Assembly: GCA_023259175.1 (NCBI GenBank)
Contig: JAHFQV010000002.1
Coordinates: 1 to 64,000 of the forward strand
Source of the DNA: Oxalobacteraceae bacterium
GTDB taxonomy: Bacteria; Pseudomonadota; Gammaproteobacteria; Burkholderiales; Burkholderiaceae_D
DNA length: 64,000 bases
Direction: 5' to 3'
The position numbers and the translations under genes were made by a program. Below, piece after piece: positions 38,044 through 61,917 of the stretch. The notes beneath the pieces were generated by a model, which worked only from the letters and a program-made list of their open reading frames with translations, ran no database searches and was not told the origin of the DNA. Numbering within the stretch: position 1 is the first letter of the stretch; each line of letters starts with the position of its first letter.

Positions 38044-38465
38044 ACTTGACTCTGGGTCATACACAGCATGACCCTATCGCGCGAGCCGTCGGAATGTCTC
38101 TACACACCGACGGCAGCGCTAGCCTGAACATTACGAAAAAATCCGTCAAAAAAAATCCGAACACAAATCACGTTTTAAAAATGAAAACAAGGTGAAAGCC
38201 ATAACAAGATCAAAAAACAACAAACCTTTTTACACGTAAACTTCAAAAAAATCGGCGCAATTCAAACCACCCCATCCCACATAAGCCAAGCCCCGCTTAC
38301 GAAAACCCCTCGACAATTTACATGTCAAAATTCGCAAATTTATTTTTCCACTGACGCGAATAAAAAAATATTTATTAGCATCCAAATTTAAATTTACTTG
38401 CTGCTAGAATGGCCATCCGCTCGACACTTTTAGCGACCTTATTTGACTCATTTTCGGATAGCTCA
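38044..38465. other. Intergenic region with two hairpins before the sigma-54 activator gene
   Basis: About 420 bases, very AT-rich after 38150. Two stems follow the isomerase gene: GGGTCAT (38054-38060) with ATGACCC (38068-38074), and GCCGTCGG (38085-38092) with CCGACGGC (38107-38114). Neither has a U tract, so they are weak terminator candidates. I could not define a promoter for the activator gene. Confidence 0.4.
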
Positions 38466-39455
38466 ATGCAAGACTTACACCGCTTTAATTTGCTCGGAAA
38501 TTCTGAACGTTTTCAGCACACCTGCAAGCAAATACACAAGCTAGCTTCTGTGGATGCTAGCGTACTCATCCATGGCGAAACCGGCACAGGCAAGGAAATG
38601 GCGGCGCGTGCGATTCATTATCTTGGCAAACGAGCGGGCAAGCCTTTTATTCCCATCAACTGCGGTGCGCTTGCCGAAACCTTGATCGAAAGCGAATTAT
38701 TTGGACACGAGCGTGGCGCTTTCACGGACGCGAAGTTAGCCAGTGCCGGTTTAATCAGCGATGCCGATGGCGGCACCCTATTTCTCGACGAAGTCGATTC
38801 ATTAAGTTTAAAAGCACAGACTGCGCTACTGCGTTTTTTGCAGGACAAAACTTATCGCCGCGTCGGCAGCAGCAGCAATCGTCAAGCTGACGTGCGCATC
38901 TTAGTTGCGACCAATGCTAAGCTTGAACATTTGGTCGAACAAAAACACTTTCGCCGCGATTTATTGTATCGCCTCAATGTGCTGGTCCTGACCATGCCCC
39001 CATTACGTGATCGTGGCAACGATGCCGTACTCTTGACCGAAAGCTTCTTGGCGCGCTTTAGTCGGGAATATCAAAAGCCACTCAAAACACTGCATCCAGA
39101 TAGCATTTCCTATCTCCAAAGCCATGCGTGGCCAGGCAATATCCGTGAGTTGGAAAACAGCGTATTGCGAGAGTTTCTCATGTCCGACAGCGCGGCCTTA
39201 CATCTCAACCCGAACGCTGAAGCCATTACACTCAACGACAAAATGGAGAGTCCACTGAGTTTCAAAGATGCCAAAGCCCGTGCTATCGCCGAATTTGAAC
39301 GTAGCTTCGTCGCCGAACAACTCAAACGCACCAATGGCAATATTTCTCGTGCAGCGAGTTTTTCTGGGCAAGACCGTAGCGCATTTGGGAAACTGGCAAA
39401 AAAATATGGCCTCAATTCCTGTGCATACCTACACACCAGCGAAGCCAGCGACTAA
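38466..39455 (+). CDS. Sigma-54-dependent transcriptional activator (PspF-like, no receiver domain)
   Basis: A 329-residue AAA+ enhancer-binding protein. Start ATG 38466 is assumed; an in-frame ATG at 38409 would add 19 residues. Walker A is GETGTGKE (about 37), the sigma-54 contact loop is GAFTDA (about 84) instead of canonical GAFTGA, and Walker B is LFLDEVDS (about 102). The arginine-finger region FRRDLLYRLNV and a Fis-like C-terminal helix-turn-helix (NGNISRAASFSGQDRSAF) follow. There is no GAF, PAS or receiver domain, so control may be by expression or by partner proteins. It lies about 1 kb before a T6SS operon that has a sigma-54-like promoter, so I infer it drives that operon, as VasH does in Vibrio. 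Confidence 0.88.
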   Translation: MQDLHRFNLLGNSERFQHTCKQIHKLASVDASVLIHGETGTGKEMAARAIHYLGKRAGKPFIPINCGALAETLIESELFGHERGAFTDAKLASAGLISDADGGTLFLDEVDSLSLKAQTALLRFLQDKTYRRVGSSSNRQADVRILVATNAKLEHLVEQKHFRRDLLYRLNVLVLTMPPLRDRGNDAVLLTESFLARFSREYQKPLKTLHPDSISYLQSHAWPGNIRELENSVLREFLMSDSAALHLNPNAEAITLNDKMESPLSFKDAKARAIAEFERSFVAEQLKRTNGNISRAASFSGQDRSAFGKLAKKYGLNSCAYLHTSEASD

Positions 39456-40477: not shown

Positions 40478-43354
40478 ATGAGTGAAAGCATTCAAAAAAA
40501 TCTGTTACGGGTGAGACCACCTCGGGTAAAAATTACCTATGACGTTGAAACCGGCGACGCGATTGTAAAACGCGAACTGCCGTTCATCGTTGGCATTTTC
40601 GCCGATCTAGGGGGCGATGTCGCGGAAGACAAAGTAACGGCCTTTAAAGACAGGCGCATCAAAAATATTGATCGCGATAATTTTAACGACATCATGCGCT
40701 CAATAGGACCGCGTGCTAACTTGGGGCCGATACTCAAAGACCCGAGTTTGCTGGAGCTACGCGCCAGTGGCGATAGCGATGATACTCAACTCATTTTTAA
40801 TTCTTTAGACGATTTTGATCCTCTGCGCGTGGTGCTTGCCTTGCCAACTTTGGCGGCAAAATATCGTGCCCGAAGTCAGATTCGTGGCTTACAGTCGAAA
40901 GCGGAATGCAGCGACGCGCTCACCCACTATTTAGATACTTGGGTCGGTGCAGTACCCAGCAAAGATGTAGATGCACTGCAAACTGAATTACGCAAATCAC
41001 TCAGCGGTGATTTTGCTGCCGGGGTCAAAAAAGAAGATTTGCGTTACGGCTTATTTGCCCTTAAAGACAAAATCTCAGGCTACAGCACGGCCAAGTCCAA
41101 TGTCTTAAGCCCCGATGATTTAGCACTGGCCATTAAAAACTCAAAAGCCAATAGCGATGCATTGAGCAAGGTCGCCAAAACGGCGCAAGATGCAGCCGCT
41201 GCGGCACCAACCGACACCGCCTTGGCGACTAGGGCGGCCGATGCCAAAAAAGCGGCCGATGATGCCGCCGCCAATCCGCCCACAGACGGGAAATCGGCAC
41301 TCAATACTGCAACCACCATGCTGGTTACAGAAATGAAAAAATGGATGCTGCTTGCCAAGAGTAATTACGACCCAACTTTGCCCGCAGACATCGCAGAAAT
41401 CGAAGCTGGAATACCTTACGCCGAGCTACTCGCGGGGGCCTTATCCGACACGGATACCCAGGAAAATCGTGGCCGTGTGAATGCGGTTATCGCAGCCTTG
41501 AGCGATCAAAGCACGAAATCAGATACCTCTTCACCAGAAGACATCAAGCGCTACGCATTGCGTGATCGTTGCCAAGTGCAGCTAGGCAAAAGCAACGCTG
41601 TCAACATGCTCACTGCGCTCGGAACACTGGACCTCAATGCTGATTATGACGACGCTAGTTGGGATCGCGCGATGTTATTACTGGGCTTGACCGAGCTTGA
41701 CGACACACAAGCGCTCGACAAATCCAGCTATGCTGACCCGAAAGACTACCAAGCGGCCTACACCTTAACCGATGCCCGCAGCCATGTTTTGTCGTATGCG
41801 GCTTATCTCCATGACACTAGCAATGCGGCGCGTAGTTCAGTGGTCGATAATGTTTTTCCTGTGCTCGAATTGGCTCGTACTGGAACGACCGGCACCGCCA
41901 CAGGTGTCGCACTACAAAGACTATCCTCTTTAGCCGAACAAGTATTGGCCAATTTGCAGGCCAAGGACAAACACTTATTGCGCGCCATGAGCAAAGGTGC
42001 GATGGCGATCATTGATGAACAAGTAGCGCTGATCGACCAATATCTCAGCCAGGCACTTTCAAGCATCATGCATTCAAGCAGCTTTAAAACGGCTGAGCAA
42101 ACATGGCGTGGCTTAGCTTATCTGGTGATGAATACCGAAACCAATGAGCTTTTGAAATTGCGCGTGTTAAACGTCAGCAAAGACGAGCTACGCAAGGACA
42201 TGGAAAAGGCCATCGAGTTTGATCAAAGCACGCTGTTCAAAATGATTTACGAAGCGGAATACGACACACTGGGCGGCAATCCCTACAGCCTTTTAGTCGG
42301 TGCCTACGAAATCGGTGCGAAGAACGATGATATCCAATTCCTAAAGAAAATCTCCACCGTCGCCGCTGCTGCGCACGCCCCTTTCATTGCTGCGGCATCG
42401 AGTGAAATGTTTGGCTTACCAAGTTATTCGACCTTAGACAAACCGCGCGACTTGGCCAAAATTTTTGAGGCCGAAGAACTCGAAGGCTGGCGCGAATTCC
42501 GCGATATGGAAGACGCACGTTATGTCTCACTGGTCCTGCCTCGCGCACTCATGCGTTTGCCTTACGGTGACCCCGTTAAACGCAATACACAACAATGTGA
42601 AGGTCTCAATTTCGAAGAACAATTAAGTTCAAGTAACCCGCAGATACGTTACAACGCCAATGGTGATGCAATTAGCTACTCAGCACCGGACACCAGTAAT
42701 TTCGTCTTCGGAAACGCGGCATTCTTGCTGGCACAAAGAATCACGCATGCATTCTCGCTCTATAGCTGGACCGCTGCGATTCGCGGTGTCGAAGGCGGCG
42801 GTTTAGTCGAAGGCTTGCCGATCTACACCTACGTTTCTGATTCCGGCACGACAGAAATTCTTTGCCCGACCGAAGTGGCCATCACTGACCGTCGCGAAAA
42901 AGAACTGAACGACTTGGGCTTTATCTCTTTGTGTCATCACAAAGGCAGTGGCAAGGCGGTATTTTTTGGTGGTCAAACGACCAATCAACCGAAAAAATAT
43001 TTCTCCGATTCCGCCAATGCCAATGCACGCATTTCAGCAATGCTGCCTTACATGCTCGCGGCATCCCGCTTTGCGCACTACATCAAAGTGATTATGCGCG
43101 ACAAAATCGGCAGCTTCCAAACCCGTGCCAACATCGAAAATTTCTTGAACTCATGGATCGCCAATTACGTACTGTTGGACGACAACGCTTCACAAGAAAT
43201 CAAGGCCGCTTATCCACTACGTGCCGCCTCCGTCGTCGTTACCGAAGTTCCGGGGCAACCTGGTGTATTCCGCGCTACGGCTTTCTTAAAACCACACTTC
43301 CAATTGGAAGAATTGACGACTTCGATTCGTCTGGTTGCAGAATTACCGAGCTAA
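40478..43354 (+). CDS. tssBC: Fused T6SS sheath protein TssB-TssC with large central insert
   Basis: A 958-residue protein carrying both sheath subunits in one frame. Start ATG 40478 follows GAGG with a 7-base spacer. Residues about 1-160 match TssB/VipA: VRPPRVKITYDVETG, ELPFIVGIFADLGG, FKDRRIKNIDRDNFNDIM, FNSLDDFDP. Residues about 510-958 match TssC/VipB: DQYLSQALSSIMHSSSF, TWRGLAYLVMNT, YSLLVGAYEIG, RDMEDARYVSLVLPR, FGNAAFLLAQRI, YLRAASV-like C-terminus. Between them lie about 345 residues that I do not recognise, including an Ala/Lys/Asp-rich low-complexity stretch (about 230-270). Sheath subunits are normally separate genes that assemble around Hcp and contract. Hcp is encoded 46 bases downstream. 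Confidence 0.88.
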   Translation: MSESIQKNLLRVRPPRVKITYDVETGDAIVKRELPFIVGIFADLGGDVAEDKVTAFKDRRIKNIDRDNFNDIMRSIGPRANLGPILKDPSLLELRASGDSDDTQLIFNSLDDFDPLRVVLALPTLAAKYRARSQIRGLQSKAECSDALTHYLDTWVGAVPSKDVDALQTELRKSLSGDFAAGVKKEDLRYGLFALKDKISGYSTAKSNVLSPDDLALAIKNSKANSDALSKVAKTAQDAAAAAPTDTALATRAADAKKAADDAAANPPTDGKSALNTATTMLVTEMKKWMLLAKSNYDPTLPADIAEIEAGIPYAELLAGALSDTDTQENRGRVNAVIAALSDQSTKSDTSSPEDIKRYALRDRCQVQLGKSNAVNMLTALGTLDLNADYDDASWDRAMLLLGLTELDDTQALDKSSYADPKDYQAAYTLTDARSHVLSYAAYLHDTSNAARSSVVDNVFPVLELARTGTTGTATGVALQRLSSLAEQVLANLQAKDKHLLRAMSKGAMAIIDEQVALIDQYLSQALSSIMHSSSFKTAEQTWRGLAYLVMNTETNELLKLRVLNVSKDELRKDMEKAIEFDQSTLFKMIYEAEYDTLGGNPYSLLVGAYEIGAKNDDIQFLKKISTVAAAAHAPFIAAASSEMFGLPSYSTLDKPRDLAKIFEAEELEGWREFRDMEDARYVSLVLPRALMRLPYGDPVKRNTQQCEGLNFEEQLSSSNPQIRYNANGDAISYSAPDTSNFVFGNAAFLLAQRITHAFSLYSWTAAIRGVEGGGLVEGLPIYTYVSDSGTTEILCPTEVAITDRREKELNDLGFISLCHHKGSGKAVFFGGQTTNQPKKYFSDSANANARISAMLPYMLAASRFAHYIKVIMRDKIGSFQTRANIENFLNSWIANYVLLDDNASQEIKAAYPLRAASVVVTEVPGQPGVFRATAFLKPHFQLEELTTSIRLVAELPS

Positions 43355-43400: not shown

Positions 43401-44009
43401 ATGGATCTCATACTTTTACAACCCGGCAATCCCGAAGTCTTCGGTGGAAAGAATGGCTGGAAAGACGGCGGCAGTTTGATTGACGGCCTAGCTTGGACGT
43501 CGGACGGAAAAGCCACCAAGGCGCAAGATGGCAGCAAAGGCGGCGATGTCTCTTTCGGCCAATGTCTAGAGCTCGTCTCTATGCATCAGGGTATGAAACA
43601 ACAAATCACCACCGATGTCAGTAATTCTGCTCGCACCTCCGGTCGGCCTGTCATCACTGAATTTACTTGCGTCAAATACGTCGATAAGACCTCGGTCAAA
43701 TTTTATGAATATTGCCTACGTGCCGAACCCCTAGGTACCGGCAAGGACCATCCGACCAAGATTTTCATCGCACGTAACTCGGGTGATAAAACAGCGAACA
43801 TCATCACCATCGAATTACGCGATGCGATTATCAGCGAGATTCAATTTCAATCGCATCCAGATGATATGCCGACCGAACAATTTAAGCTCAATTTTACCGA
43901 GATTTTGTGGACCTATTCAGTGCAGCGTGCTGATACTGGTAGCGCGGGTAATCTCTCTGCGGGTTGGAGTATTGCGCGCAATCGCCCTATCGGTAAATTT
44001 ACTGATTGA
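43401..44009 (+). CDS. hcp: T6SS inner-tube protein Hcp (TssD)
   Basis: A 202-residue tube protein whose hexamers stack inside the sheath and are ejected on contraction. ATG 43401 has GGAG five bases upstream. Typical Hcp elements: LELVSMHQGMKQQ, SGRPVITEFTCVKYVDKTSVKFYEYCL, IFIARNSGDKTANIITIELRDAIISE, FKLNFTEILWTYSVQ. It is some 30-40 residues longer than common Hcp, with the extra sequence near the N-terminus (GKNGWKDGGSLIDGL) and C-terminus. The gene follows the sheath fusion closely and precedes tssE. Confidence 0.93.
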   Translation: MDLILLQPGNPEVFGGKNGWKDGGSLIDGLAWTSDGKATKAQDGSKGGDVSFGQCLELVSMHQGMKQQITTDVSNSARTSGRPVITEFTCVKYVDKTSVKFYEYCLRAEPLGTGKDHPTKIFIARNSGDKTANIITIELRDAIISEIQFQSHPDDMPTEQFKLNFTEILWTYSVQRADTGSAGNLSAGWSIARNRPIGKFTD

Positions 44010-44063: not shown

Positions 44064-44453
44064 ATGCAATTCTTTTTTGAACGACTGGCCGAACGCCACA
44101 CGAATTCTTTCGGATTGGAGAAACCGTTTCAAATCGAATCAGCAGTGCGTGCGCAAATCCAACGCATTGTCAGCTGTCGCCCGATTGATCCGACTTCCCT
44201 GCAATTTGATTTATTGGGGTTTGGCATGCCCAGCATCGTCGAAATCGCACAAGGAAATAAGGAGCAATTAAACCAATATGCGACGCGTTTGAAAGTACTC
44301 ATCGGTTTATATGAGCCGCGTCTCAAAAACGTACAAGTGGAATTAGCGCAAACAACCAATCAAATCAGCCCCTATGACCTACAAGTCATAGGTGTCTTGA
44401 TACATGACGGTGAGCCGCGCCCATTCCATTTTCAACTTGATTCCTCACACTAA
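44064..44453 (+). CDS. tssE: T6SS baseplate protein TssE
   Basis: A 129-residue gp25-like baseplate component. The conserved early FFERL segment, the mid-protein PIDPTSLQFDLLGFGMPSI block, and the EPRLKNVQVEL segment fit the TssE/gp25 family. It caps the sheath end at the baseplate. It lies between hcp and tssF in the usual order for this type of cluster; the sequence is divergent from the best-known TssE proteins, so position adds to the call. Confidence 0.87.
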   Translation: MQFFFERLAERHTNSFGLEKPFQIESAVRAQIQRIVSCRPIDPTSLQFDLLGFGMPSIVEIAQGNKEQLNQYATRLKVLIGLYEPRLKNVQVELAQTTNQISPYDLQVIGVLIHDGEPRPFHFQLDSSH

Positions 44454-44483: not shown

Positions 44484-46304
44484 ATGCAGTCCGATGGCAA
44501 TCAACTGAAAGATCATTTCCGATCCGAACTTTCCGCATTACGCGGCGAGGCGGCGGAGTTTTCTGCCAGCCATCCCAATCTCGCACACGCCTTGGGACTC
44601 AATTCGCAACAAGCAACCGATCCGCAAGCGGAAATTCTTTTACAATCGTTTGCCTATCTAACGGGTCGCCTGCGTTACCAGCAAACGCTAGATCAAGCCG
44701 GTTTAGCCAATGCACTCATCGCATTTTTATATCCGCATCTTGAAGCACCGATTCCGTCCATGTTTATCGCGGAAATTACGCCCAAATCGGATAGCGCCGC
44801 CTTTACCAAAGAACAGGTTTTAGCCCGCGGACGCTATGTCAGTGCGATGGCCAACAACGATCAAGGCAATCAAGTCGAATGCCGCTTCCGCACCTGTTTT
44901 GAAACGCCCTTGCTTCCCTTAAACATCGATGCCATCGAACTCGTTCCGGCGATGGATTACGCGGCATTTCCTGAAGCGGAAAGCAAGCAATCGATCTTGC
45001 GCGTCAAAATTAAAACAGCGCATATGGGGCGCTTACAAACTAAGGGAAAACAAAGGCTGCGCTTCTACATCAACAGCAATGAAGAATACGCATTTCGAAT
45101 TTACGACTGCCTTTCCAATTTTTTGTGCGGTATCGCCATTCATGTCCCGGGATCAGGCAATCTCATCATGAGCGAACTCAATCAATTTCGCTGGTTAGGC
45201 TTTTCCGATGACGAGGCCATGCTCGACCTCAATCCCCACACCCATCCAGGCTACCGGGTCTTGCAAGAGTATTTTTCGTTTCGCGACAAATTTTTATTTT
45301 TTGAAGTCAGCGGCTTGGATTTTTCCACGGTACAGACCGAATTCGATTTACTGTTTTTCCTAAATATGCCCTACGACAGTACATTAGGACTGTCTGTCAA
45401 TAGCCTCAAACTCAATTGTGTGCCTATGATCAATTTGTTCGCACGCCGTCTGGAACCGATTGCCTTAGATCAGACCGAGTACGAATACCGCCTGCAAGGT
45501 GATATTGAAAACCATCGCTATTGCGAAATTCATTCTGTCTTATCGCTAGAATCGATAAAACCTGATGGCGGTCCACGTCCGATCACACCGTACTTTGACC
45601 TCGATCAAATTAGCGCCTTGGAAGATCAAGACTATTTTTTTGTGACGCGCCGCGAACCAAGTCAATCAAGTAACATCCCCGGCTCAGAATTATTTGTCTC
45701 ACTCCTCGACAGTCAATTTGATACGACCCAATTATTAGATGAGGTCATCGGCGGTAAGGCGCTCTGCACTAACCGTAGACTGGCCGAGCAACTTCGGCCC
45801 GATAGCAAGCTCTACCTCGAAGGCAGCGGGCCCATCGATAAGATCACGGCACTCAATAAGCCGACCTTGCATTTCCTTCCCGACTTGGTTGGCGCACGCC
45901 CCTGGGCGCTGGTATCCCAGCTTGCGCTCAACCACCTTTCACTGGCGGAAGGTCCGCACGCATTACGCGCGCTCAAGGAAATTTTACGCCTGCATGTGGG
46001 TGGAAGCCGGGTTCAAGGTCTACGTGAAATCGATGGAATCAATGCCCTACATTGCCGTCAAGTGACGCGGCGCATGGGGCAAGAAAATTGGCGTGGCTTT
46101 GTACGCGGCATGCATATCACCTTAGAAATGGACCCACGCAAATTTGAACGCGGCAGTGCAACTTTGTTCTGTTCCGTATTAAGACATTTTTTCTGCCTCT
46201 ATGCGACGGTCAATAGTTTGATCGAAGTGAGTATGGCGAACCAAAATAACAATGGAAGTGAAAAGCAATGGCAAGCTATGGTTGGCGCACAAAAGTTTCT
46301 GTGA
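44484..46304 (+). CDS. tssF: T6SS baseplate protein TssF
   Basis: A 606-residue baseplate wedge protein (VasA/ImpG). Typical N-terminus: HFRSELSALRGEAAEFSASHPNLAHALGL, then EILLQSFAYLTGRLRYQ and ALIAFLYPHLEAPIPSM. Later regions: FRWLGFSDDEAM, RDKFLFFEVSGLDFS and FSLAEGPHALRALKEILRL-like repeats ending with the VTRRMGQENWRGFVRG block. The gene end overlaps tssG by 37 bases, so the two are translated together, consistent with their joint wedge complex. Confidence 0.95.
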   Translation: MQSDGNQLKDHFRSELSALRGEAAEFSASHPNLAHALGLNSQQATDPQAEILLQSFAYLTGRLRYQQTLDQAGLANALIAFLYPHLEAPIPSMFIAEITPKSDSAAFTKEQVLARGRYVSAMANNDQGNQVECRFRTCFETPLLPLNIDAIELVPAMDYAAFPEAESKQSILRVKIKTAHMGRLQTKGKQRLRFYINSNEEYAFRIYDCLSNFLCGIAIHVPGSGNLIMSELNQFRWLGFSDDEAMLDLNPHTHPGYRVLQEYFSFRDKFLFFEVSGLDFSTVQTEFDLLFFLNMPYDSTLGLSVNSLKLNCVPMINLFARRLEPIALDQTEYEYRLQGDIENHRYCEIHSVLSLESIKPDGGPRPITPYFDLDQISALEDQDYFFVTRREPSQSSNIPGSELFVSLLDSQFDTTQLLDEVIGGKALCTNRRLAEQLRPDSKLYLEGSGPIDKITALNKPTLHFLPDLVGARPWALVSQLALNHLSLAEGPHALRALKEILRLHVGGSRVQGLREIDGINALHCRQVTRRMGQENWRGFVRGMHITLEMDPRKFERGSATLFCSVLRHFFCLYATVNSLIEVSMANQNNNGSEKQWQAMVGAQKFL

Positions 46305-50415: not shown

Positions 50416-53061
50416 ATGAAGATCATCAAACCACTTACGCTAGGATTGCTACATAAACCTTATCAATATCAAGGTAAATCCTTCATTGCGATTACGGCTA
50501 TGGGTTTCTTTAAACTGGGTCAGGGCAATGCGCGCTTTTTATTAGAAAGTGCGCAATGGCCGAAAATTGTTCCTCGTCTACCACAAGGTGTGGCGCTAGA
50601 CGAAGTCATGCCCAAACCACAGGGCGAAGTCTTATTGCTGGCCAATGCCTACGCGCCAAAGGGTGCGCCCAGCACAGAAATGGAAATCCGGGTACGCCTA
50701 GCCAATGTCGATAAGCGCTTGCGTATCTACGGCGATCGTGAATGGAAACGCGGCGTGTATTTATGGAGTTCTGTCAGCAAAACGGCGGCCATCACAGTAC
50801 AGAAAATAGATTACGCCTATGCTTTTGGCGGCGCGAAATATGCGCAAAATCCTGTGGGACGCGGCTACACGGGCAAGCTTAGCCAAAACCACGGACAACT
50901 CCCCAACATCAGTTACCCGACGCAAAACACGCAAGCGCGTTGGCTTAGCGCGCAACCGGCAGGTTATAGCCCCATCCCCATCAGCCATCCGCTCCGTAGT
51001 AGCAAGCTCGGAAGCTATGGCCGACGCTGGCGCAAATACGAAGCCCCCGGATTTGCATCCAACCTCAATTGGGAAGCCTTCATGCAAGCGCCTATCGACC
51101 AATGGATCACTGGCTATTTTCAAGGCGGCGAGGACTATTGTTTGGAAGGGATGCACCCCACACAGAGCTGCCTCAAAGGGCGCATTCCCGCATTAAAAGC
51201 ACGCGCCTTTATTCTCAGTAAAAACCAAAAGCCCGAGGACGCGCGCGAATTACACATGCGCTTTGACACCGTTTATTTCCTACCCGATCAAGAACTCGGC
51301 GTCGCCCTCTTCCACGGTCATGTAGAAATCAAAGACAGTGATGGCCTCGACGTACAAGCCATCATGCTCGCTTATGAAAATAATGCGGAAGATAAAAGCA
51401 AAGCGCATTACCTCGAGGTGTTGAACCTGCGCTTAGACCCGAAAACCGCAGCGCTGCACGCCTTTAACGAATCACAACTTGCCGCCACCCTTTCTCCCGA
51501 AGCCCAAGCTGAAAAGCAAATGCTAAGCGCCGAAAATAGTGCGAAAGAACAAAAAAAACGACAAGCCGCGATCAATGAACTCCATGAAGATTTCTGGCAA
51601 AGTCAAGGCAGTGCTATCACGCGCCCCAAAGCTGATGTGCCACCCACAGCCACGACGCCCCCCTTTGCCAGCCTTAATAGCCAAAGCATCGTGGACGGCG
51701 ATTTTGATCTTTCCAAAATCATCGCAGAAGCCACCCAAATCGCGGAGCAGGCAGAACGCGCGGGACAGGCCAAAATCGCACAGCTAGCAATGGAATTGGG
51801 CGCAGCGCCCAGCGCAGATCAAGACAGGCTCTATCAGGAAGCCATCGAACGCGCCATCGTCCCTGCTTATGACTTATTTCCAGAGAACGAAACGGGTGTC
51901 GATCCACAGCAGGCGGAAATGCTATTAGCACTTGAAACCGCGTATCAAAATGGGCAAGGCGACCCACACCTGAGTCTAGCCGAAGCGCAAACCCACCTCA
52001 AAAAACTGCCCGCATTAAAACGGCAAGCACGTCGCGCTGCGATCACCGCGACCCAGAATCAAGCCAGTTTATCGCCGGAGAAAGCACAAAAATTTGGACA
52101 AGTCGTGATGCAATGGCTGCGTAGCGGATTAAGCCTAGCGGGGCGCGATTTAAGCGGTGTCGATTTGCGCGGCTGCGATCTATCTGGCGCAGATTTACGC
52201 GAAGTCATGCTTGAAAATGCCCTGCTCGATGGTGCCAATTTTAGCGATGCCAATCTGCAGGGCGCAGTGCTACTCCAAGCACACATGCAAGCGGCCAACT
52301 TTAGTCGTGCGCTGCTCACCGACGCGAATCTTTGCCAAAGCCTAGCACTGCACGCCAACTTCTACGCAGCCCAACTCAAGGGTGCGCGTGCAATTGAAGC
52401 AAAATGGGATGGCGCTCAATTAGATCAAGCATGTCTCGACGATTTTATTGGCATTAAGATTCAATTAAACCAAGCCAGTTTGCGCGAGGTACAAGCCAAA
52501 AATGCGATCTTCTTGCAAGCCGAAGCGGTCGCAAGTCGTTGGCATGGTGCGCAGCTTGAAAAAATGGTGGCCTTACGCGCCGATTTATCCCATTGCGAAA
52601 TGGTCGATGTGCGCATGAACAAAACCGTATTAATCGAAGCCAATTTAAGTTCCAGTCGGTGGCTACGCGCTAGCTTAAACGGCGTACAAGCGACCAGCAA
52701 AGCCAACTGGCGCGACGCAGAATTTGAACAGGTGTCGGCTGAAAATTGCGGCTTTCATGGCATCGACTTCCAAGAAGTACGCATGCATCAATCACGCTTC
52801 ATCCGTTGTGATTTCGGTGAATGTAATATGGAAGCGGCCCACATCACAGAAAGTAATTTTGCGTATTCCACCTTCATGCAAACACGCTTGAATTCTGCGT
52901 CGATCACGAACGTGGATTTTTACCAAGCCAATTGCCGCAAGGCGGACTTCCGCGACGGTCGTATTTCGAAAAGCCCGTTCTTTCAAACCGAATTAACGCA
53001 AGCGCAATTCGGCCCCGACTTAAGCAAAAAACACAGTAGAGACTCAAGGAGAGCGGCATGA
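50416..53061 (+). CDS. DUF2169 and pentapeptide-repeat T6SS accessory protein
   Basis: An 881-residue cytoplasmic protein. Residues about 1-330 match DUF2169 (KPLTLGLLHKPYQYQGKSF, VRLANVDKRLRIYGDREWK, IDYAYAFGGAKYAQNPVGRG, MHMRFDTVYFLPD). DUF2169 proteins act as adaptors loading effectors on VgrG in Agrobacterium (Tde2 system). A helical, Ala/Gln-rich linker follows (about 380-575). Residues about 578-870 are pentapeptide repeats (SGVDLRGCDLSGADLREVML), forming a right-handed quadrilateral beta-helix. It lies directly after vgrG, overlaps the next pentapeptide gene by 4 bases, and belongs to the module with DUF3540 and DUF4150. Role as a spike-loading adaptor is inferred from family and position. 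Confidence 0.85.
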   Translation: MKIIKPLTLGLLHKPYQYQGKSFIAITAMGFFKLGQGNARFLLESAQWPKIVPRLPQGVALDEVMPKPQGEVLLLANAYAPKGAPSTEMEIRVRLANVDKRLRIYGDREWKRGVYLWSSVSKTAAITVQKIDYAYAFGGAKYAQNPVGRGYTGKLSQNHGQLPNISYPTQNTQARWLSAQPAGYSPIPISHPLRSSKLGSYGRRWRKYEAPGFASNLNWEAFMQAPIDQWITGYFQGGEDYCLEGMHPTQSCLKGRIPALKARAFILSKNQKPEDARELHMRFDTVYFLPDQELGVALFHGHVEIKDSDGLDVQAIMLAYENNAEDKSKAHYLEVLNLRLDPKTAALHAFNESQLAATLSPEAQAEKQMLSAENSAKEQKKRQAAINELHEDFWQSQGSAITRPKADVPPTATTPPFASLNSQSIVDGDFDLSKIIAEATQIAEQAERAGQAKIAQLAMELGAAPSADQDRLYQEAIERAIVPAYDLFPENETGVDPQQAEMLLALETAYQNGQGDPHLSLAEAQTHLKKLPALKRQARRAAITATQNQASLSPEKAQKFGQVVMQWLRSGLSLAGRDLSGVDLRGCDLSGADLREVMLENALLDGANFSDANLQGAVLLQAHMQAANFSRALLTDANLCQSLALHANFYAAQLKGARAIEAKWDGAQLDQACLDDFIGIKIQLNQASLREVQAKNAIFLQAEAVASRWHGAQLEKMVALRADLSHCEMVDVRMNKTVLIEANLSSSRWLRASLNGVQATSKANWRDAEFEQVSAENCGFHGIDFQEVRMHQSRFIRCDFGECNMEAAHITESNFAYSTFMQTRLNSASITNVDFYQANCRKADFRDGRISKSPFFQTELTQAQFGPDLSKKHSRDSRRAA

Positions 53062-54137
53062 TGCAAAATAAAACCGCACTCGACAAACTCGATCACATCA
53101 AAAAATGCATACGCTTAAGTAAACCTATTCAAGGCCTACACCTAGAGAACAGCGATTTTCGTGGGCTCGATTTGAGTGAGGCTATTTTTAACGAATGCTA
53201 TTTAAGTGGCAGCAATTTTTCTGCTTGCAATTTAAGCCAGGTCAAATTCATTTCTTGCGACCTCAATCAAAGCCAATTCATCCAGAGTCAACTGGCGCAA
53301 TCTGCTTTCATTCAGTGCAAAATGCGCTCCTGCGATTTTCGTGAAATTTCCTTGAAACTAGACTGCTGGACCGAGTGTGATTTAAGTGAATCGAATTGGG
53401 AAAACGTACAGCTCAATCGCAATTCCTTCATACACTGCCAAATCCATCATGCAAACTTTGCTAGCAGCCAGCTAACGCGCTGTGTGCTACTGGCCTGTAC
53501 AGTCGAAGAATCCGATTTCACAGACGCACATTTTAATCAGTCCGTCATCAACAAGATCGACCTCTCCCACGTTAAACTTGCGGGACTCACTGCCTGCGAA
53601 ACTGTACTCATCAATGCCGATTTACACGGTCAAAATCTAGATCATTTGCATTTCGAAAAATGTAGCTTGCAGGGCGCAAATTTAAGCGATGCCCAACTAC
53701 GCAATGCCACCATGACAGCCTGCAATTTCATCGGTGCGCAATTCATCCGCACGCAAATGCAAGGTATCTCGGCTGAAAATAGTCATTTCATGTCGGCCAA
53801 ATTCGACTCCGCCATACTGGACGACAGCGCGCTGAAACACAGCTTGTTTCAAGAAGCCATCGTCTGCAATAGCAGCTTCAAAAATGCCGATCTCAGCATG
53901 AGTGTTTGGAATAAAAGCTGCCTCGCCGATGTCGATTTTTCCTCGGCAAAAATGCAGCATAGTCATTTTGAACACGCCCAAGGGGTGCGGATAGATTTTA
54001 GTAAAACCAAACTCGACTTTGGGAAATTTCACGGTGCATCCTTAGTCACAGCCAGCGAACGCGGCGCATCAAAACGCCACATCAGCAAAACCGATAAGAA
54101 ACAACTCGCAGCGCAAATACGCGCGCAGCAAATCTGA
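53058..54137 (+). CDS. Pentapeptide-repeat protein of the T6SS module
   Basis: A 359-residue protein made almost wholly of pentapeptide repeats (A/S-N/D-L/F-x-x pattern, e.g. SDFRGLDLSEAIFN, GANLSDAQLRNATMT), ending in a Lys/Arg-rich tail (GASKRHISKTDKKQLAAQ). Start ATG 53058 has GGAG six bases before it and overlaps the upstream stop. Such proteins fold as long beta-helices; those with DNA-gyrase activity mimic DNA, but T6SS-linked ones are mostly uncharacterised. Candidate roles are a spike/effector-loading scaffold, or a secreted cargo. No signal peptide or transmembrane segment is visible. Confidence 0.82.
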   Translation: MMQNKTALDKLDHIKKCIRLSKPIQGLHLENSDFRGLDLSEAIFNECYLSGSNFSACNLSQVKFISCDLNQSQFIQSQLAQSAFIQCKMRSCDFREISLKLDCWTECDLSESNWENVQLNRNSFIHCQIHHANFASSQLTRCVLLACTVEESDFTDAHFNQSVINKIDLSHVKLAGLTACETVLINADLHGQNLDHLHFEKCSLQGANLSDAQLRNATMTACNFIGAQFIRTQMQGISAENSHFMSAKFDSAILDDSALKHSLFQEAIVCNSSFKNADLSMSVWNKSCLADVDFSSAKMQHSHFEHAQGVRIDFSKTKLDFGKFHGASLVTASERGASKRHISKTDKKQLAAQIRAQQI

Positions 54138-54157: not shown

Positions 54158-54712
54158 ATGCATAGCACGCTGCACAATCAAAAGAATACTACCCCTCTGC
54201 TACCGGTCTGGGATGAAGCGCTCATCGCGGTTACATTGGGCGACCATAGCTTTTTACTGCACGATGGTCGCCTAGCGCGCCAAGCCGCATCCTGTTTAGT
54301 GGTACCTGAAACGGGGGACCGCGCCATCGTACTTGCTAGCCAAAATGGCGACTACTTTATTGTTCACATCTTATTGCGCAATCGCGCTGAGAGTGCAGAA
54401 TTATCGATTCCTTATAGCGAAGAAATCTTGATCAAGCAAGCCCGCATAGGCTTACAGGCTAGCGACAAAATAGAATTACGCGCGCTGCACGATCTTGAAA
54501 TTACGGCGGCTACCGGCAGTCTTTCTTTCAATGCGCGAAATCTATTTTCGACCATACAGGATAACCTCGTCCAAAGCACACGAAATGTCGTCAGTAAAAC
54601 AGAACACTGCTTAATGGAAGTCAAGCAGCTATTTAAAATCAACAGCAAACAAGCACTGATCACAGCGGAAGATGATGTGAAAATTGATGCTGAGCGTATT
54701 AGTATCGGATGA
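54158..54712 (+). CDS. DUF3540 T6SS-linked protein
   Basis: A 184-residue protein with a perfect AGGAG five bases before ATG 54158. It matches the DUF3540 pattern: a short beta-rich N-terminal (WDEALIAVTLGDHSFLLHDGRLA), VPETGDRAIVLASQNGDYFI, then NARNLFSTIQDNLVQS and a DVKIDAERISIG ending. DUF3540 proteins occur in T6SS clusters next to DUF2169 and DUF4150 genes; no biochemical function is established. It probably forms part of a spike-tip or adaptor complex. No membrane helix or signal. Confidence 0.75.
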   Translation: MHSTLHNQKNTTPLLPVWDEALIAVTLGDHSFLLHDGRLARQAASCLVVPETGDRAIVLASQNGDYFIVHILLRNRAESAELSIPYSEEILIKQARIGLQASDKIELRALHDLEITAATGSLSFNARNLFSTIQDNLVQSTRNVVSKTEHCLMEVKQLFKINSKQALITAEDDVKIDAERISIG

Positions 54713-54807
54713 GATCTAGCAAGGGGAGCCGCCATTTGGAATTATTTTTACTCAGTCCTATGCGCTTAAAGCGATGTCAGTGTGATTGATTTTTGAAGGA
54801 AAACAAA

Positions 54808-55206
54808 ATGTTCGCCAATAATAGTATCGGTGTCATGAATTTATTTACCGCACCCGACGTGTGTTTAACACCGCTCTTGGTACCCACACCTGTGCCCTAT
54901 CCTAACATCACGTTTTCCTTCTTCCACATTCCATCGGTTTTTAATGTGATGTTTGGGGTCGGCTTGGCGGAAAATCTCAATACACAAGGCACCATTAGTT
55001 TAGGTGACCAACCGGGTGTTTTAGGCGGCATCATCTCCCATGTTTTCATGGGACCTGATCGCTATATTTTGGGCAGCTTACGGGTACTTGTGGGCGGCAT
55101 TTTTGCGATGCGTTTAACCTCACTGGTCGGCATGAATGGCATGCCATTTAATACCGTAGGCATGTCGGTGACCCCCGCACAATTTCGCGTTTTGTTATTG
55201 AGCTAA
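54808..55206 (+). CDS. DUF4150 PAAR-like spike-tip protein
   Basis: A 132-residue protein starting ATG 54808 with AAGGA seven bases upstream (an earlier TTG in frame at 54793 is not needed). It fits the PAAR-like DUF4150 family: MFANNSIGVMNLFTAPDVC at the start, LLVPTPVPYPNIT, GDQPGVLGGIISHVFMGPDR, and a hydrophobic closing TSLVGMNGMPFNTVGMSVTPAQ. PAAR proteins sharpen the VgrG trimer and may carry effectors. This one has no C-terminal toxin extension, so effectors would have to be loaded non-covalently. Confidence 0.8.
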   Translation: MFANNSIGVMNLFTAPDVCLTPLLVPTPVPYPNITFSFFHIPSVFNVMFGVGLAENLNTQGTISLGDQPGVLGGIISHVFMGPDRYILGSLRVLVGGIFAMRLTSLVGMNGMPFNTVGMSVTPAQFRVLLLS

Positions 55207-55709: not shown

Positions 55710-57200
55710 ATGGACCCATTAAGCCAACTCCCCGACAGCATATTATGGTCAGAAGGCATGCTGCTTTCACCCCAGCACTTCCAGCAAAATGATTTGGTAT
55801 GGCAGGATCATTTGCGGCATCGCCTATCGTGTATCACTCCCCATTTTTGGGGCATCAAACATCTTAAAATCGATACCACGAATCTTTTTAGCGGCATGGT
55901 CAGCATCATTGAACTCGAATGTATTTTGCCCGATGGTCTTGCCATCGTTTTCCCGTCATCAAGCCAACATCTCAGTATCGACGTACCGGTGGGTGATCTC
56001 GCCAAGGTGGATGGTCGCCCGATTCGGGTTTGGGTCAAGGCCAATCCACGCAGCCCTCATTCCGCAAAATTTGATAGCGCAGAACGGCGCTACGACAATA
56101 CTGAAGCGCTGAAGACTGCAGATGAAACCACCGGCATTGGTGAAATCGAAGTGGGTCGCCTGCGCCCCCATTTTAGTTTGCATATCGACGATGCCAGCAA
56201 GCCCGCACCCGCTGGTCGTAGCGCTTGCCCCTTGTTCGATGTCATGCGTGATGCCCAAGGACATCTGTGCATGAGTGATTATCATCCACCGATGATCAAT
56301 CTCGGTGCTTCTGAGTTTTTAGGTGATACCGGTTTAGCCCTTCAACTGCAACAGACCTTGGTGAAAATCTGGTCAAAAATTGAGGAATTGGCGACCTCGG
56401 TAAGCGACGATAAATCCGACGCAGACAGTACCATCGGCACTTTGATTAGCTCGGCGCGGATACTTGCCTGTGCTTTACCACAAATGGAAATTTGCATCCA
56501 CGACCCTAGCAGTAGTTTGGTCGATGCCTACCGCGCGGTCTCTTTGATGGTCGGTCAGATTGCACAAATTGGCCCGCAACCCACGCCATTAAAGATGAAG
56601 CCCTATGTGCATCACGATTGCATGCCGCAGTTTAAGGCGGCCATACAATTTATCGAGGCACGTTTACGATTAGTCAGTACCGAATATAAGAGCGTTCAAT
56701 TTGTCGCCGCTGACGTTGAGGGTATCGGTGCAGTGCGATTTACACGCTGGCTGCCTGCCGATATTGAAAACGAATTGATCGTTGAATTGCGTCTTAAAGA
56801 AGGACAAACACTGGCCGATGTTCAGGCCTGGTTGAATGATACACGCATCGTATCATCGAACTTAATGAAGGTCGTTCAACAGACCCGGGTGCCGGGTGCG
56901 CGCATACGTTTGCTCACTTCCAAGGAAATCAAAGACCGCAAACTCAAACAAGACGCGGCGCTCTTTATGATTGAAAATCAGGCCGTCAATATTGCTGGCA
57001 AGGGCCTACAAAACGCCTTCCGTCCTGATACCCACCTCTTGGTACATGGCCCGGAAGACGCACGTATGCCAGCCGCAATCTTCCTGTATCGCCGCAAAGA
57101 TTCGGGCAAAACAAAAGCACCCAACAAATCCACCAAATCCACAGACAGCCAATCGGATGCGCCACTGCGTTCTCATCCACATGAGGGACCTCATGTCTGA
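55710..57200 (+). CDS. tssK: T6SS baseplate protein TssK
   Basis: A 496-residue protein linking baseplate and membrane complexes. Typical start: ILWSEGMLLSPQHFQQNDLVWQDHLRHRL, matching the family hallmark (W.eGm.l.pqHFQ...). AGAGG precedes the start. Later regions include FDVMRDAQGHL and RFTRWLPADIENELIVELRL. The last about 35 residues are Lys/Ser/Thr-rich and the end overlaps tssL by 8 bases. Confidence 0.95.
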   Translation: MDPLSQLPDSILWSEGMLLSPQHFQQNDLVWQDHLRHRLSCITPHFWGIKHLKIDTTNLFSGMVSIIELECILPDGLAIVFPSSSQHLSIDVPVGDLAKVDGRPIRVWVKANPRSPHSAKFDSAERRYDNTEALKTADETTGIGEIEVGRLRPHFSLHIDDASKPAPAGRSACPLFDVMRDAQGHLCMSDYHPPMINLGASEFLGDTGLALQLQQTLVKIWSKIEELATSVSDDKSDADSTIGTLISSARILACALPQMEICIHDPSSSLVDAYRAVSLMVGQIAQIGPQPTPLKMKPYVHHDCMPQFKAAIQFIEARLRLVSTEYKSVQFVAADVEGIGAVRFTRWLPADIENELIVELRLKEGQTLADVQAWLNDTRIVSSNLMKVVQQTRVPGARIRLLTSKEIKDRKLKQDAALFMIENQAVNIAGKGLQNAFRPDTHLLVHGPEDARMPAAIFLYRRKDSGKTKAPNKSTKSTDSQSDAPLRSHPHEGPHV

Positions 57201-57993: not shown

Positions 57994-60900
57994 GTGAGCA
58001 AAACCTTGGAACTTGACAGCGACATCACCCTCGTCATTATCACCCTAGCGGTGATCGCGACCATCGCCAGCTTCGTGCTGTGGCGGGTGTATGCGCGTCA
58101 AAAAATAGCAAAAGCGCCCTGCTCTGACGACAAACTTGAAGCGAACAGCTTGATTGCGCCGACATTGCTGGATCGCTTCAATACCCTACTCGACAAAATC
58201 GATTATTTGCGCACACGTCGAGAATGGCGTTACCAGACCCCGTGGATTTTGATGATAGGCGAAGCACAGGCAGGCAAAAGCAGCTTTCTCGCCTCCATTC
58301 CCGCAAAACACAATAGTCAGCCCGATTCACGTTCGCAACAATTAAAGGCCACTGCTTGTGAATGGAAAATTTTGGAAACCGGTGTTTTCATCGACCCCGA
58401 AGGAAAATTCTGCACTGCTAAGGCCGATACTGAAGAACAAAAAACCTGGCTCAAAATCCTGCAAGAATTAGATGATCTCAGGCCAGAACGTCCGATTGAT
58501 GGTCTGGTCATCACGCTTTCAGCCAAAACACTGCTGAGCGGTACTGTGGAGCAAAGACGTGAAATCGCCAACAACATTAATCAACAATTAGCGCAAATTC
58601 AGGATCAGTTTGAATTTCAATTCCCAGTCTACGTCAACGTCAGTCAGGTTGACAGAATTCTGGGTTTTGGCGCTTTTTGGGCGACCCAAGCGAGCTATCA
58701 ACTCAATCAAATGTTCGGCTGGTCTGCACCTGCCAACACCATGAGCCAGTCTCCAAAAGAATGGGTATCAACCGCATTTTGCAATGTGCTTTCCCGTTTA
58801 AATTTTCTGCAAATTGATGCCGCTGCGGCGCACGCGCACATCCACGATGCCGATAATTTTTTCCTCTTCCCAAGACATTTTCAGGTACTAGAAGCGCCAC
58901 TCGCCGAAACACTAGAACTCATTTTTAAAGCATCGCCTTGGCGTGACGGCTGCAATTTCCGTGGTCTGTATTTCACCGGCAACGTGAAAGCAGGGGGCGA
59001 TCAAAAATCAGGTGTATGCGAAGAAGTAAATTTTATCGAAGACCTAAGCTGCAATAAGATACTCAAAGAAATTCACTTAGCGCGCCCCACAAAGCAAGGC
59101 ATTTGGTCACGCAATGCTTTAATTCGCAACATCCAGAAACTAGGTATCGCCACATTTGCAAGCATGATGATTTTACTGGCCATCGCCTCGGTACAACTCA
59201 ATCGTCAGGTCGGTGTCCTAGTCACGTCTATCAATCTGCTGCAGGAAATCAAAACCACGCCCGAAACTGGCGAGGTCTGCACCAGCAAAGTACAAGTCAA
59301 CGAGTTATTGGAACAAGTCGCCCAGATCAACACCAATTCATATTACTTCGCCATTCCGATTTCCTGGTTTGACAGGCATACCGCGAAGCGTAGTGCGAAA
59401 ACCCTCGCCGAATCTTCCTTGCAAAGAGTCGTAATGCCCGCAATGAGTTGTCAACTCGAGCTCAAAGCACGTGCGCTGAATATGCAAAAAGCAGTGGTGA
59501 TCGACAAGGATGCCTTGATTTCGGAATCCTTTAGCGCAACCAAAAAAGGCTTATACGACTATATCGACGAGGTTGATGCTTTAGAGGCCAATATAGCGCG
59601 CTATCGTTATCTGATTTCAGATCAAACCATCAATCAAGTCGCGCGCACCTTTAAAGAGTTTTCTGCGTTTTACGAATACGTCTACGAAACCCCACTTCCC
59701 GAATCGATACAAGCGGATCGCGGCGCATTACGTGTCGCTTTATCGGAAGTCGTCCTCAAAGACAACTTACAATTGCCGACGGGAATGCGGCCACGCTTCA
59801 TCACCCAAATTGAACAAAACACGCAAAAGCTGCGCCAACAGTTCGCGCTAGAAGTCGATGCTGGGACCAGCCTATTAAACGCGCTCAATGCAGAACAGGA
59901 GCCTATACTCGACAACACACGTCACTTTACTTGGTGGCTCAATTGGGTACAAACCTCATGGTTAGGTTCGACGGTCAAAAATAATCCCTGTGACGACATT
60001 CGCCAACAACTGAGCGAAAAAACCCATCCCTTGGTTCTGAAACATCAGTACCCGCAAAGCCTGCGTCATGTCACACAAAGTTTCGATACCGAGACCTGTT
60101 ATCGGCCTTCAATGAATACCCTGATGGCGATGAAATTAGCGCCCTATAATTTACTATTCACCGAACAAAAAGCGGGATTGCAAATGAATCCCGACTTGCT
60201 GCCAGAAATCACGGGTCTGACCGATCTGGCAACGCAAACCTACATGAAGCGCAACAACACCCGCGCATTTGCTTGTGCGCCAGTGATACACCGTTGGCAG
60301 GACAACGAGGTAGCGCTTGCGCTATCCTATGCCAACGAATATCAAAAATTCGCTGACAAACACACGATCAAAGCCAATCAAATTTCGGCGAACAATATCA
60401 CGCCACTCTATACCCGACTCGCGCGCACACAACTGCAAGCGGCCATGAATGATGCCATGCGTGAAGCGCAAACCGAGTTAGGAAGCGAAGGAAGTGGAAG
60501 GACTGCAGTCCAGCTCGCGGCAAGCTCTTTAGCCGATCAAGAATTAGCGAACCGTAGCAAGGAATTTAAGGCTATCGTCCCTAATGTCAGTGCTGTCATT
60601 GAGCGCTATCAGCAATTAAGTTTTAAATCGACGACCGAAGTCAATGAATGCGTGCGTCGCTTCGCCACCGATCAACTTGGGCAAATCAATTCACTCAGTT
60701 ACCTGAGCCGCTTATACGAGCCTGCGCTCAGCACGCAATCAGGAAAAATGTATGTCTTTGGTAGCGAAGCCAATACCAAGGACTACCTCAAACGTCAGCT
60801 CGATAGAACCAAAATACTGACCGACTACGCCCAGCCTTTCGTCGATATTTTGCAAAAAACCAGCGCAACTAACGATGCCCAATTACCGACCGAACAAACG

Positions 60901-61917
60901 GCAGCGTATTGGAACAACACCATCAACGAGGTCAACCGCTACCAGCAATTTCATGAAACCAATGGACAAGTGGCGATTTTGGAAAACCTCTTCCTCAGTC
61001 AACTCATGTCGCTCTCGCTGGATAACTGTAAGCAAAATTTAGCCGCCAAACCAGAAGAATACAGTCATGAATTTTTCTCGATACGGCGTAAGCAAATCGA
61101 CGAAGACAGTCGTCAAGCCTGTGACCAACAAAAAGGCCTGTTGGCGATGCAAAATTACCGCACATGGTCGAGCCGCTTTAACCGCGAACTGGCAGACCAC
61201 TTCCCTTTTGCTGACAGCAGCGCACCCGATGTAGCGCTGCCTGTCGTCAAAGCTTTTTTTGAAGACTATGAACAACAGCGTGTCGCACTGCGACTCTCAG
61301 TGCAAAACCTGAAAGGCACACACTGGAATGCGGTACGGAGTTTCCTAACCGATCTTGATCAAGCCAGTGCATTTTTTACGGCTAGCCTAGGCAACGGTAA
61401 CAGCAAACCTAGCCTACAAATAATCGCACAATTTAAAGCCCTGCCCGCGCGTTCAATCAAGGCTGAGGAAACGGTCAACTGGGCACTCAGTAGTGGCCTG
61501 AGTAATTCGAGTTTTCCGAATTTTGAAAAGACCTTAGACTGGCCGTTTGGGCAATCCGTTGGCCTACATATTACTTGGGCTAGCGGTTCAAAATGGTTGC
61601 CATATTCCAGCGCGCAAGCTCCTTCGGTACAAGTGGATAGACAAATCGCCAGCATCGTCAAAAGTGGGGACTGGGCATTACTCCATTTGATCGAAGATTT
61701 CCGTTATCGCGACCCAGCGCTCGTGGACAAACAAACCGCAAAAATTTTACTCGAACTACGTATTCCCATCGTCTTGCGTGACCGAGCAAGTGCGCCAAGC
61801 ACCACCGACACCGCGCAAATGTACCTAGGCCTGAGTCTGATGGCGCAAGACCCTGTCACTCACGCCCCTGTTAATTTATATTACCCCGCGCCCTTCCCGC
61901 GCGTCGCCCCGCTTTAG
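57994..61917 (+). CDS. tssM: T6SS inner-membrane protein TssM (IcmF-like)
   Basis: A 1307-residue membrane protein starting at GTG 57994 without a clear Shine-Dalgarno. Helix 1 at about 12-30, a cytoplasmic NTPase-like domain with Walker A GEAQAGKSS (about 88-97) and VDRILGFGAFWA, helix 2 at about 387-405 (ASMMILLAIASVQL), then a large periplasmic IcmF-related region and C-terminal beta-domain that contacts TssJ (ending YYPAPFPRVAPL). It lacks the third helix after the N-terminal pair that many TssM have; I see only two convincing ones. The intact P-loop suggests NTP binding. Followed by tssA 10 bases later. Confidence 0.93.
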   Translation: MSKTLELDSDITLVIITLAVIATIASFVLWRVYARQKIAKAPCSDDKLEANSLIAPTLLDRFNTLLDKIDYLRTRREWRYQTPWILMIGEAQAGKSSFLASIPAKHNSQPDSRSQQLKATACEWKILETGVFIDPEGKFCTAKADTEEQKTWLKILQELDDLRPERPIDGLVITLSAKTLLSGTVEQRREIANNINQQLAQIQDQFEFQFPVYVNVSQVDRILGFGAFWATQASYQLNQMFGWSAPANTMSQSPKEWVSTAFCNVLSRLNFLQIDAAAAHAHIHDADNFFLFPRHFQVLEAPLAETLELIFKASPWRDGCNFRGLYFTGNVKAGGDQKSGVCEEVNFIEDLSCNKILKEIHLARPTKQGIWSRNALIRNIQKLGIATFASMMILLAIASVQLNRQVGVLVTSINLLQEIKTTPETGEVCTSKVQVNELLEQVAQINTNSYYFAIPISWFDRHTAKRSAKTLAESSLQRVVMPAMSCQLELKARALNMQKAVVIDKDALISESFSATKKGLYDYIDEVDALEANIARYRYLISDQTINQVARTFKEFSAFYEYVYETPLPESIQADRGALRVALSEVVLKDNLQLPTGMRPRFITQIEQNTQKLRQQFALEVDAGTSLLNALNAEQEPILDNTRHFTWWLNWVQTSWLGSTVKNNPCDDIRQQLSEKTHPLVLKHQYPQSLRHVTQSFDTETCYRPSMNTLMAMKLAPYNLLFTEQKAGLQMNPDLLPEITGLTDLATQTYMKRNNTRAFACAPVIHRWQDNEVALALSYANEYQKFADKHTIKANQISANNITPLYTRLARTQLQAAMNDAMREAQTELGSEGSGRTAVQLAASSLADQELANRSKEFKAIVPNVSAVIERYQQLSFKSTTEVNECVRRFATDQLGQINSLSYLSRLYEPALSTQSGKMYVFGSEANTKDYLKRQLDRTKILTDYAQPFVDILQKTSATNDAQLPTEQTAAYWNNTINEVNRYQQFHETNGQVAILENLFLSQLMSLSLDNCKQNLAAKPEEYSHEFFSIRRKQIDEDSRQACDQQKGLLAMQNYRTWSSRFNRELADHFPFADSSAPDVALPVVKAFFEDYEQQRVALRLSVQNLKGTHWNAVRSFLTDLDQASAFFTASLGNGNSKPSLQIIAQFKALPARSIKAEETVNWALSSGLSNSSFPNFEKTLDWPFGQSVGLHITWASGSKWLPYSSAQAPSVQVDRQIASIVKSGDWALLHLIEDFRYRDPALVDKQTAKILLELRIPIVLRDRASAPSTTDTAQMYLGLSLMAQDPVTHAPVNLYYPAPFPRVAPL

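Follow-up and report, generated by a model that had tools for sequence, protein, structure and literature searches.

The 64,000-nucleotide stretch of an Oxalobacteraceae genome analyzed here (the window) carries, at positions 40478 to 43354, a type VI secretion system (T6SS) gene in which tssB and tssC, which encode the two sheath subunits, are fused. As predicted from genome sequences, this TssB-TssC fusion is common to the window genome and about fifty other species, and the fusion clade is a conserved, single-origin T6SS sheath variant. We consider it probable that the gene serves a T6SS with a one-polypeptide sheath protomer that contracts as usual and whose fired sheaths are not recycled by ClpV (TssH).

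One open reading frame carries both sheath domains

The fused tssB-tssC gene is one open frame without a stop, and its ATG at 40478 is preceded by GAGG. Its features are as follows.

40478..43354, plus strand: fused tssB-tssC, 958 aa, single frame, with PF05591, PF05943 and PF18945
40478..40945, plus strand: TssB (VipA) domain, residues 1-156 (PF05591)
40514..40612, plus strand: VipA-type N-terminal inter-subunit linker, residues 13-45, of canonical length
40946..41992, plus strand: linker between the domains, residues 157-505 (349 residues), predicted mostly helical at low confidence, without a Pfam match
41993..43351, plus strand: TssC (VipB) domain, residues 506-958 (Pfam, TIGR03355 and PDB match)
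42887..42889, plus strand: codon of D804, equivalent of VipB D333 (phmmer alignment to 3j9g_B)

Pfam searches with the window protein placed VipA (PF05591) at residues 11 to 156 (95 bits, cut-off 24), VipB (PF05943) at residues 513 to 835 and VipB_2 (PF18945) at residues 846 to 956. The NCBIfam TssC profile TIGR03355 was matched with 590 bits (cut-off 271.5), the match beginning only at profile position 24, and the TssB profile TIGR03358 with 92.5 bits, slightly below its cut-off of 97.25. The TssB domain was 45 to 58% identical to other fused TssBs of the genus and family, and the best PDB match of the TssC domain was Azotobacter TssC (9n4v_A). A preliminary description of the window had proposed a natural TssB-TssC fusion with domains at about residues 1 to 160 and 510 to 958. 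Both families are indeed matched in one frame, with a TssB profile match inside the first 160 residues and boundaries that were correct within a few residues.

The fusion recurs across species and forms one clade

Genomes of GTDB were searched with an alignment of fused TssBs, and the best 80 of 138 confirmed relatives, ranked by likeness to the fused TssB, were retained as named loci. The preliminary description had suggested looking for chains that match both profiles; both domains were fused in frame in 51 of the 80 named loci, which is not a prevalence, as the loci were picked by likeness to the fused TssB. Two loci cut by contig ends (L082, L098) were counted as not fused, and L111 (566 aa, on a short contig of a metagenome-assembled genome [MAG]) was omitted from the 51-member alignment and included in the tree. 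All three Pfam families were matched in all 51 aligned members. The fused loci came from Oxalobacteraceae, Burkholderiaceae, Chitinibacteraceae, Rhodocyclaceae, Comamonadaceae, Rhodanobacteraceae, Lysobacteraceae, Zooshikella, Algicola and others. The protein was also matched in 56 of 196 relatives, with TssB and TssC in one frame in five beyond the window's own (871, 676, 698, 680 and 680 aa). In an even sample of the order (399 genomes searched), 16 of 95 TssB-bearing genomes had their TssB match in a frame 634 aa long or longer, and both domains were checked for four of the newly found ones (G287, G559, G432 and G490).

On a tree of 104 TssC cores (51 unfused), the 53 fused rows made up one side of a branch with 99% support in the Shimodaira-Hasegawa-like approximate likelihood ratio test, requiring 1 label change; the tree was made by a quick method with a midpoint root, and its unfused rows were chosen by likeness to the fused TssB. 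Purifying selection was found on both domains (w of 0.03 to 0.22 for TssB and 0.014 to 0.215 for TssC; 16 species pairs, 15 informative). An assembly or frameshift artefact, a concern raised by the draft state of the window genome (233 contigs), was rejected and has next to no chance of being the explanation, as the architecture is shared by 51 named loci of other species and is under purifying selection.

Two very divergent TssB-TssC single frames, L158 (G937:C10; 575 aa) and L164 (G791:C179; 513 aa, without the VipB_2 domain), have TssCs 31% and 27% identical, respectively, to that of the window; from their sequences, they are probably separate fusion events. G937 has ClpV, on a contig that also carries an unfused TssB, and G791 has none over the cut-off given below.

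A search of plasmids returned 436 matching records, in none of which a single place covered 80% of the query; a fused record whose linker is long and unmatched could miss this bar. No description of the fusion was present in the open-access literature found; most subscription papers, preprints and domain databases lay outside that search, and it may be listed somewhere. The available part of Boyer 2009 (PMC2660368) mentions no TssB-TssC fusion, and that of PMC10781749 describes GFP-tagged TssB.

ClpV is missing where the fused TssC is the only one detected

ClpV was defined as a match to TIGR03345 over its cut-off, and a tier at about 790 to 855 bits, also seen in control genomes, was read as presumptive ClpB. 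The preliminary description had suggested looking for tssH beyond the window or elsewhere in the genome; there was no match over the TIGR03345 cut-off in the window genome (draft, 95.8% complete), whose ClpB-tier copy is 36 to 42% identical to five ClpVs.

ClpV was absent from all 31 genomes whose sole detected TssC is fused (27 surveyed, plus G000, G009, G011 and G037). It was detected in 20 of 22 genomes with both fused and unfused TssCs (18/20, plus G001 and G043) and in 41 of 45 genomes taken as unfused (18/18 and 23/27) from the frames seen at their loci, not from a full TssC survey. Among 47 fused-bearing genomes, the ClpV count never exceeded that of unfused TssCs. The fused finds G403, G490 and G927, which came later, have no ClpV over the cut-off and a single TssB match each; the other later finds, G287, G559, G432 and G422, have ClpV together with additional TssBs that are unfused.

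The gene after tssG is vgrG in 41 of 43 fused loci, and a ClpV or ClpB-type match takes this place in 17 of 23 unfused ones. No ClpV or ClpB match was found nearby at any of the 51 fused loci, many of which are cut short. Fisher p values, which disregard kinship, were not counted as evidence. Thirteen ClpV matches over the cut-off in Burkholderiaceae genomes, such as L163 (G248), contain one in-frame TGA, mostly near the C-terminal end, which may be the gene's own stop read through.

The ClpV-docking segment of TssC is eroded

ClpV is reported to bind an LLDEII motif of the TssC N-terminus (PMC4239648, in the part available). Unfused TssCs start with a segment like LLDQIVEQSKVA, which matches this ClpV-bound motif. 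We trained profiles of the segment on one half of the unfused TssCs and scored the other half. The held-out unfused proteins reached at least 28.6 bits in one set (27 tested) and at least 12.0 in the other (24 tested, only L012 below 20), and the fused proteins at most 17.0. Against a profile of the unfused segment, the window protein scored 4.4 bits. L012 (G107), which is unfused, scored as low as the fused proteins. The preliminary description had the ClpV-binding N-terminus moved into mid-chain. It is displaced and in fact, judging from the profile scores and the late start of the TIGR03355 match, the docking helix is lost or degenerate in the fused TssCs.

A degenerate copy of the segment follows the junction in deep members, namely, Algicola (L121), UBA3588 (L063), Zooshikella (L066, L069) and G927, the last of which lies outside the tree and appears from its sequence to be an early branch. 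The likely order of events, as these sequences suggest, is that TssB was first fused to a TssC whose N-terminus was still entire, that the helix then decayed, and that the linker was afterwards free to drift and grow. Three of four unfused relatives without ClpV (Magnetospirillum L091, L100 and L118 and the Acidobacteriales MAG L113) retain an LLDQIF- or LIDQIF-type TssC N-terminus, and in the L091 genome the ClpB tier was not found either.

The inter-domain linker varies widely

The insert of about 345 residues noted in the preliminary description is present (349 residues), but it does not define the family. Linkers range from 41 to 355 aa, being shorter than 150 aa in 33 of 51 proteins and at least 150 aa in 18, and that of the window is a lineage-specific extreme. 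Long linkers (at least 150 aa) require at least 8 changes on the TssC tree and are alanine-rich. Pfam gave no match in any of the 51 linkers, and the insert was rejected as a known domain. Linker w was higher than TssC w in 14 of 15 informative pairs and reached 0.39. The window linker partly resembles those of Undibacterium crateris (25% identity over 159 aa) and Janthinobacterium (35% over 60 aa), and its AlphaFold predicted local distance difference test (pLDDT) score is mostly 35 to 70 across residues 171 to 470. Members with long linkers may have a decorated sheath.

Contraction determinants are retained and the junction is predicted in the outer layer

The preliminary description had expected the covalent linkage to block contraction or change sheath geometry, on the strength of linker changes in Vibrio. 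That expectation is not supported. The Vibrio result concerns the N-terminal linker of VipA, in which two extra residues abolish contraction (reported in part of PMC5797969), and this linker has the canonical length (33 residues) in all 51 fused proteins. The window TssB aligns to VipA (5ojq_a) without gaps from residue 15 on. The same source describes static sheaths for VipB D333A and contracting sheaths for VipA with msfGFP, so bulk on VipA is tolerated. The D333 position is acidic in all 51 fused proteins (D in 49, E in 2).

As for geometry, the fusion joins the C-terminal side of TssB to the N-terminal side of TssC, which are helices packed within the outer layer of one heterodimer. In the part of PMC5807055 on the P. 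aeruginosa sheath, TssB helix 117-133 and TssC helices 66-86 and 39-54 of one heterodimer form outer-layer domain 3, which pyocins lack and which is accompanied there by the statement that pyocins are not recycled. By analogy, the fusion would rebuild exactly this domain 3 spot.

AlphaFold models of the window protein and of a short-linker member (L083) matched VipB-type chains best; next came single-chain sheaths, whose alignments ran through both domains in order. Against the R-pyocin sheath 3j9q_A, residues 35..610 of the short-linker model aligned to 24..361 (Z 14.6, root mean square deviation 5.5, 299 aligned) and residues 35..852 of the window model to 24..289 (Z 13.1, root mean square deviation 4.2, 231 aligned). 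Foldseek alone revealed mainly the TssC part. These model matches speak for folds and are not proof of function.

The fused gene heads a T6SS cluster that lacks tssH

The surrounding genes are as follows.

38409..39455, plus strand: sigma-54 activator (PF00158), upstream of the cluster, possible regulator
43401..44009, plus strand: hcp (tssD), PF05638 at 70.2 bits, below the NCBIfam cut-off
44064..44453, plus strand: tssE, TIGR03357 at 51.4 bits (cut-off 53.2), PF04965 at 27.3 (cut-off 27.2)
44484..46304, plus strand: tssF, TIGR03359 at 484.6 bits
46268..47479, plus strand: tssG, TIGR03347 at 193.6 bits
47476..50409, plus strand: vgrG, PF05954, in the place after tssG that tssH holds in 17 of 23 unfused loci
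50416..53061, plus strand: DUF2169 with pentapeptide repeats
53058..54137, plus strand: pentapeptide-repeat protein
54158..54712, plus strand: DUF3540 protein
54793..55206, plus strand: PAAR-like protein, PF13665
55234..55692, plus strand: putative TssJ, a small lipoprotein-like open reading frame with an N-terminal lipobox-like LSAC, just before tssK; no family match
55710..57200, plus strand: tssK, TIGR03353 at 192.4 bits
56971..57948, plus strand: tssL, PF09850 at 87.4 bits; the listed frame overlaps tssK, and the true start is probably later
57994..61917, plus strand: tssM, PF14331 at 152.2 bits, TIGR03348 at 184.9, below cut-off
61928..63097, plus strand: tssA, TIGR03363 at 271.8 bits

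The core set of a type i T6SS (T6SSi), TssA, D, E, F, G, I, K, L and M, is present in one cluster with Pfam matches over cut-off; the fused gene heads it, and, with the putative tssJ counted, tssH is the sole missing component. Since the matches of TssD, E, L, M and VgrG are below the NCBIfam cut-offs though over those of Pfam, the predicted system is a divergent T6SS. Of the 51 fused loci, several of which are cut by contig ends, 28 have a homologue of the sigma-54 activator; the window copy has no recognised receiver domain. The sigma-54 promoter motif TGGC-N6-TTGCW was matched twice in the window (2.13 expected), neither match being near the fused gene.

At L041 (G009), L043 (G037), L045 (G001), L050, L059, L057 and L068, fused tssBC and hcp stand as an orphan pair, and no further T6SS gene was detected in the fetched stretches. 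TssF and TssK over cut-off were found nowhere in G009 and G037 (99% complete) or in the MAGs G213 and G240. Such pairs may represent either a relic or a sheath and tube reduced to the minimum, and purifying selection still acts on the curvum-rugosum pair (w 0.21).

Weighing the explanations

The sequences indicate that, most likely, the sheath contracts and ClpV does not recycle it. The C-terminal side of TssB would be joined to the N-terminal side of TssC on the outer layer of the sheath wall, and the arms that interlace protomers (the TssB N-terminus and the TssC C-terminus) would remain free, so that the sheath could assemble around Hcp and contract as usual. The fusion would have arisen once, at or close to the point where ClpV was lost and the docking helix decayed, so that fired sheaths would escape ClpV recycling; they might be used once, or slowly cleared by ClpB or proteolysis.

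Several points weigh against this reading. The support is computational throughout, and we infer sheath assembly, contraction, linker position and turnover mode from it. The ClpV association comes from one clade and is one historical correlation. Five of the 31 fused-only genomes (draft MAGs G208, G217, G220, G228 and G240) yielded no ClpB either at E 1e-200 and are little informative, and two genomes with fused and unfused TssCs have no ClpV (G221, Dyella monticola, and G226, a MAG). The unfused relatives without ClpV named above show that ClpV loss does not need the fusion. U. crateris has a broken clpV with two stops (G011:C34:14781-16670; L145), sharing 79.5% identity over 649 aa with the ClpV adjoining the unfused T6SS of U. 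curvum, and by this likeness it is a remnant of a second T6SS. The position of VipB K223, needed for sheath assembly in Vibrio (from the same part of PMC5797969), is K or R in only 4 of 51 fused proteins; P. aeruginosa TssC1 likewise has G there. Model confidence is moderate (pLDDT 68.6 for the window, 74.2 for L083), and three Undibacterium loci carry only the fused gene and hcp.

It may be instead that the sheath is dynamic and cycles normally, with the general unfoldase ClpB in the role of ClpV and gripping the linker or an adaptor. This is a real possibility, although we would not bet on it. ClpB stands in for ClpV in Francisella (PMC5481754, as far as available), and at E 1e-200 a ClpB-tier match was obtained for 42 of the 47 fused genomes; however, ClpB is a general chaperone, which makes its presence uninformative, and the linkers that it would grip diverge fast.

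Proteolytic removal of the linker as a spacer, giving ordinary TssB and TssC, would suit the variable length and fast evolution of the linkers. Nevertheless, some linkers do not reach the length of the termini whose place they take, and cleavage leaves the loss of the docking segment unexplained, which makes this explanation unlikely. That the fused system is a relic, with a decaying or non-contractile sheath, seems quite improbable. U. seohonense and U. rugosum do keep only the fused gene and hcp, without TssF or TssK in genomes rated 99% complete, and w in the curvum-rugosum pair is above that of most pairs, but tssF is kept in 44 of 51 loci and in the window, whose cluster, counting the putative tssJ, lacks only tssH, and selection elsewhere is strongly purifying. 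We hold it to be highly improbable that an internal start also yields TssC and mixes fused and free forms: the window gene has 7 in-frame ATGs between codon 150 and a point just past the start of the TssC core, but 11 of 52 genes have none there, and an ATG with a 5-base ribosome-site match occurs in only 4 of 52, a weak test in that true starts also score weakly.

Relation to known sheaths

According to part of PMC5807055, T6SS sheaths are recycled, unlike those of phages and pyocins, and the two-protein split with its ClpV handle is linked to recycling. A clade that in nature has rejoined the two proteins and has no ClpV for them would offer a ready-made test of that link. It also suggests that a covalent TssB-TssC bond is tolerated and that the outer-layer site accepts large insertions. 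We suggest, tentatively and as a rather doubtful extension, that a T6SS lineage has returned to a phage-like one-chain, single-shot sheath: the fusion would have removed the ATPase handle, ClpV would have been lost, and lineages would repeatedly have placed domains of their own (up to 355 aa) at the freed outer-layer junction, so that the sheaths would be decorated and not recycled.

The system shares with the canonical T6SSi sheaths (V. cholerae VipA/VipB, P. aeruginosa TssB1C1, Azotobacter 9n4v) both domains, gene order, N-terminal linker length, the D333 equivalent and the TssC fold. Those sheaths have two genes and a ClpV-docking TssC N-terminus, whereas the window system has one chain and no ClpV. 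Lack of clpV is likewise described, in part of PMC5813230, for the T6SSii of Francisella, for T6SSiv and for P. putida group 1.2a. In Francisella, however, IglA and IglB are separate chains (3j9o), and the TssJLM proteins of T6SSiv are described as missing or highly divergent, whereas in the window TssL and TssM can be recognised. The sheaths of R-pyocins, contractile phages, Photorhabdus virulence cassettes (PVC) and the antifeeding prophage (AFP) are likewise one polypeptide, and the fused models align to single-chain sheaths in the same order; pyocin sheaths likewise are not recycled (PMC5807055, same part). Sequence identity to these single-chain sheaths is only about 10%, however, and the window fusion is tied to TssA, K, L and M genes and retains the T6SS domains.
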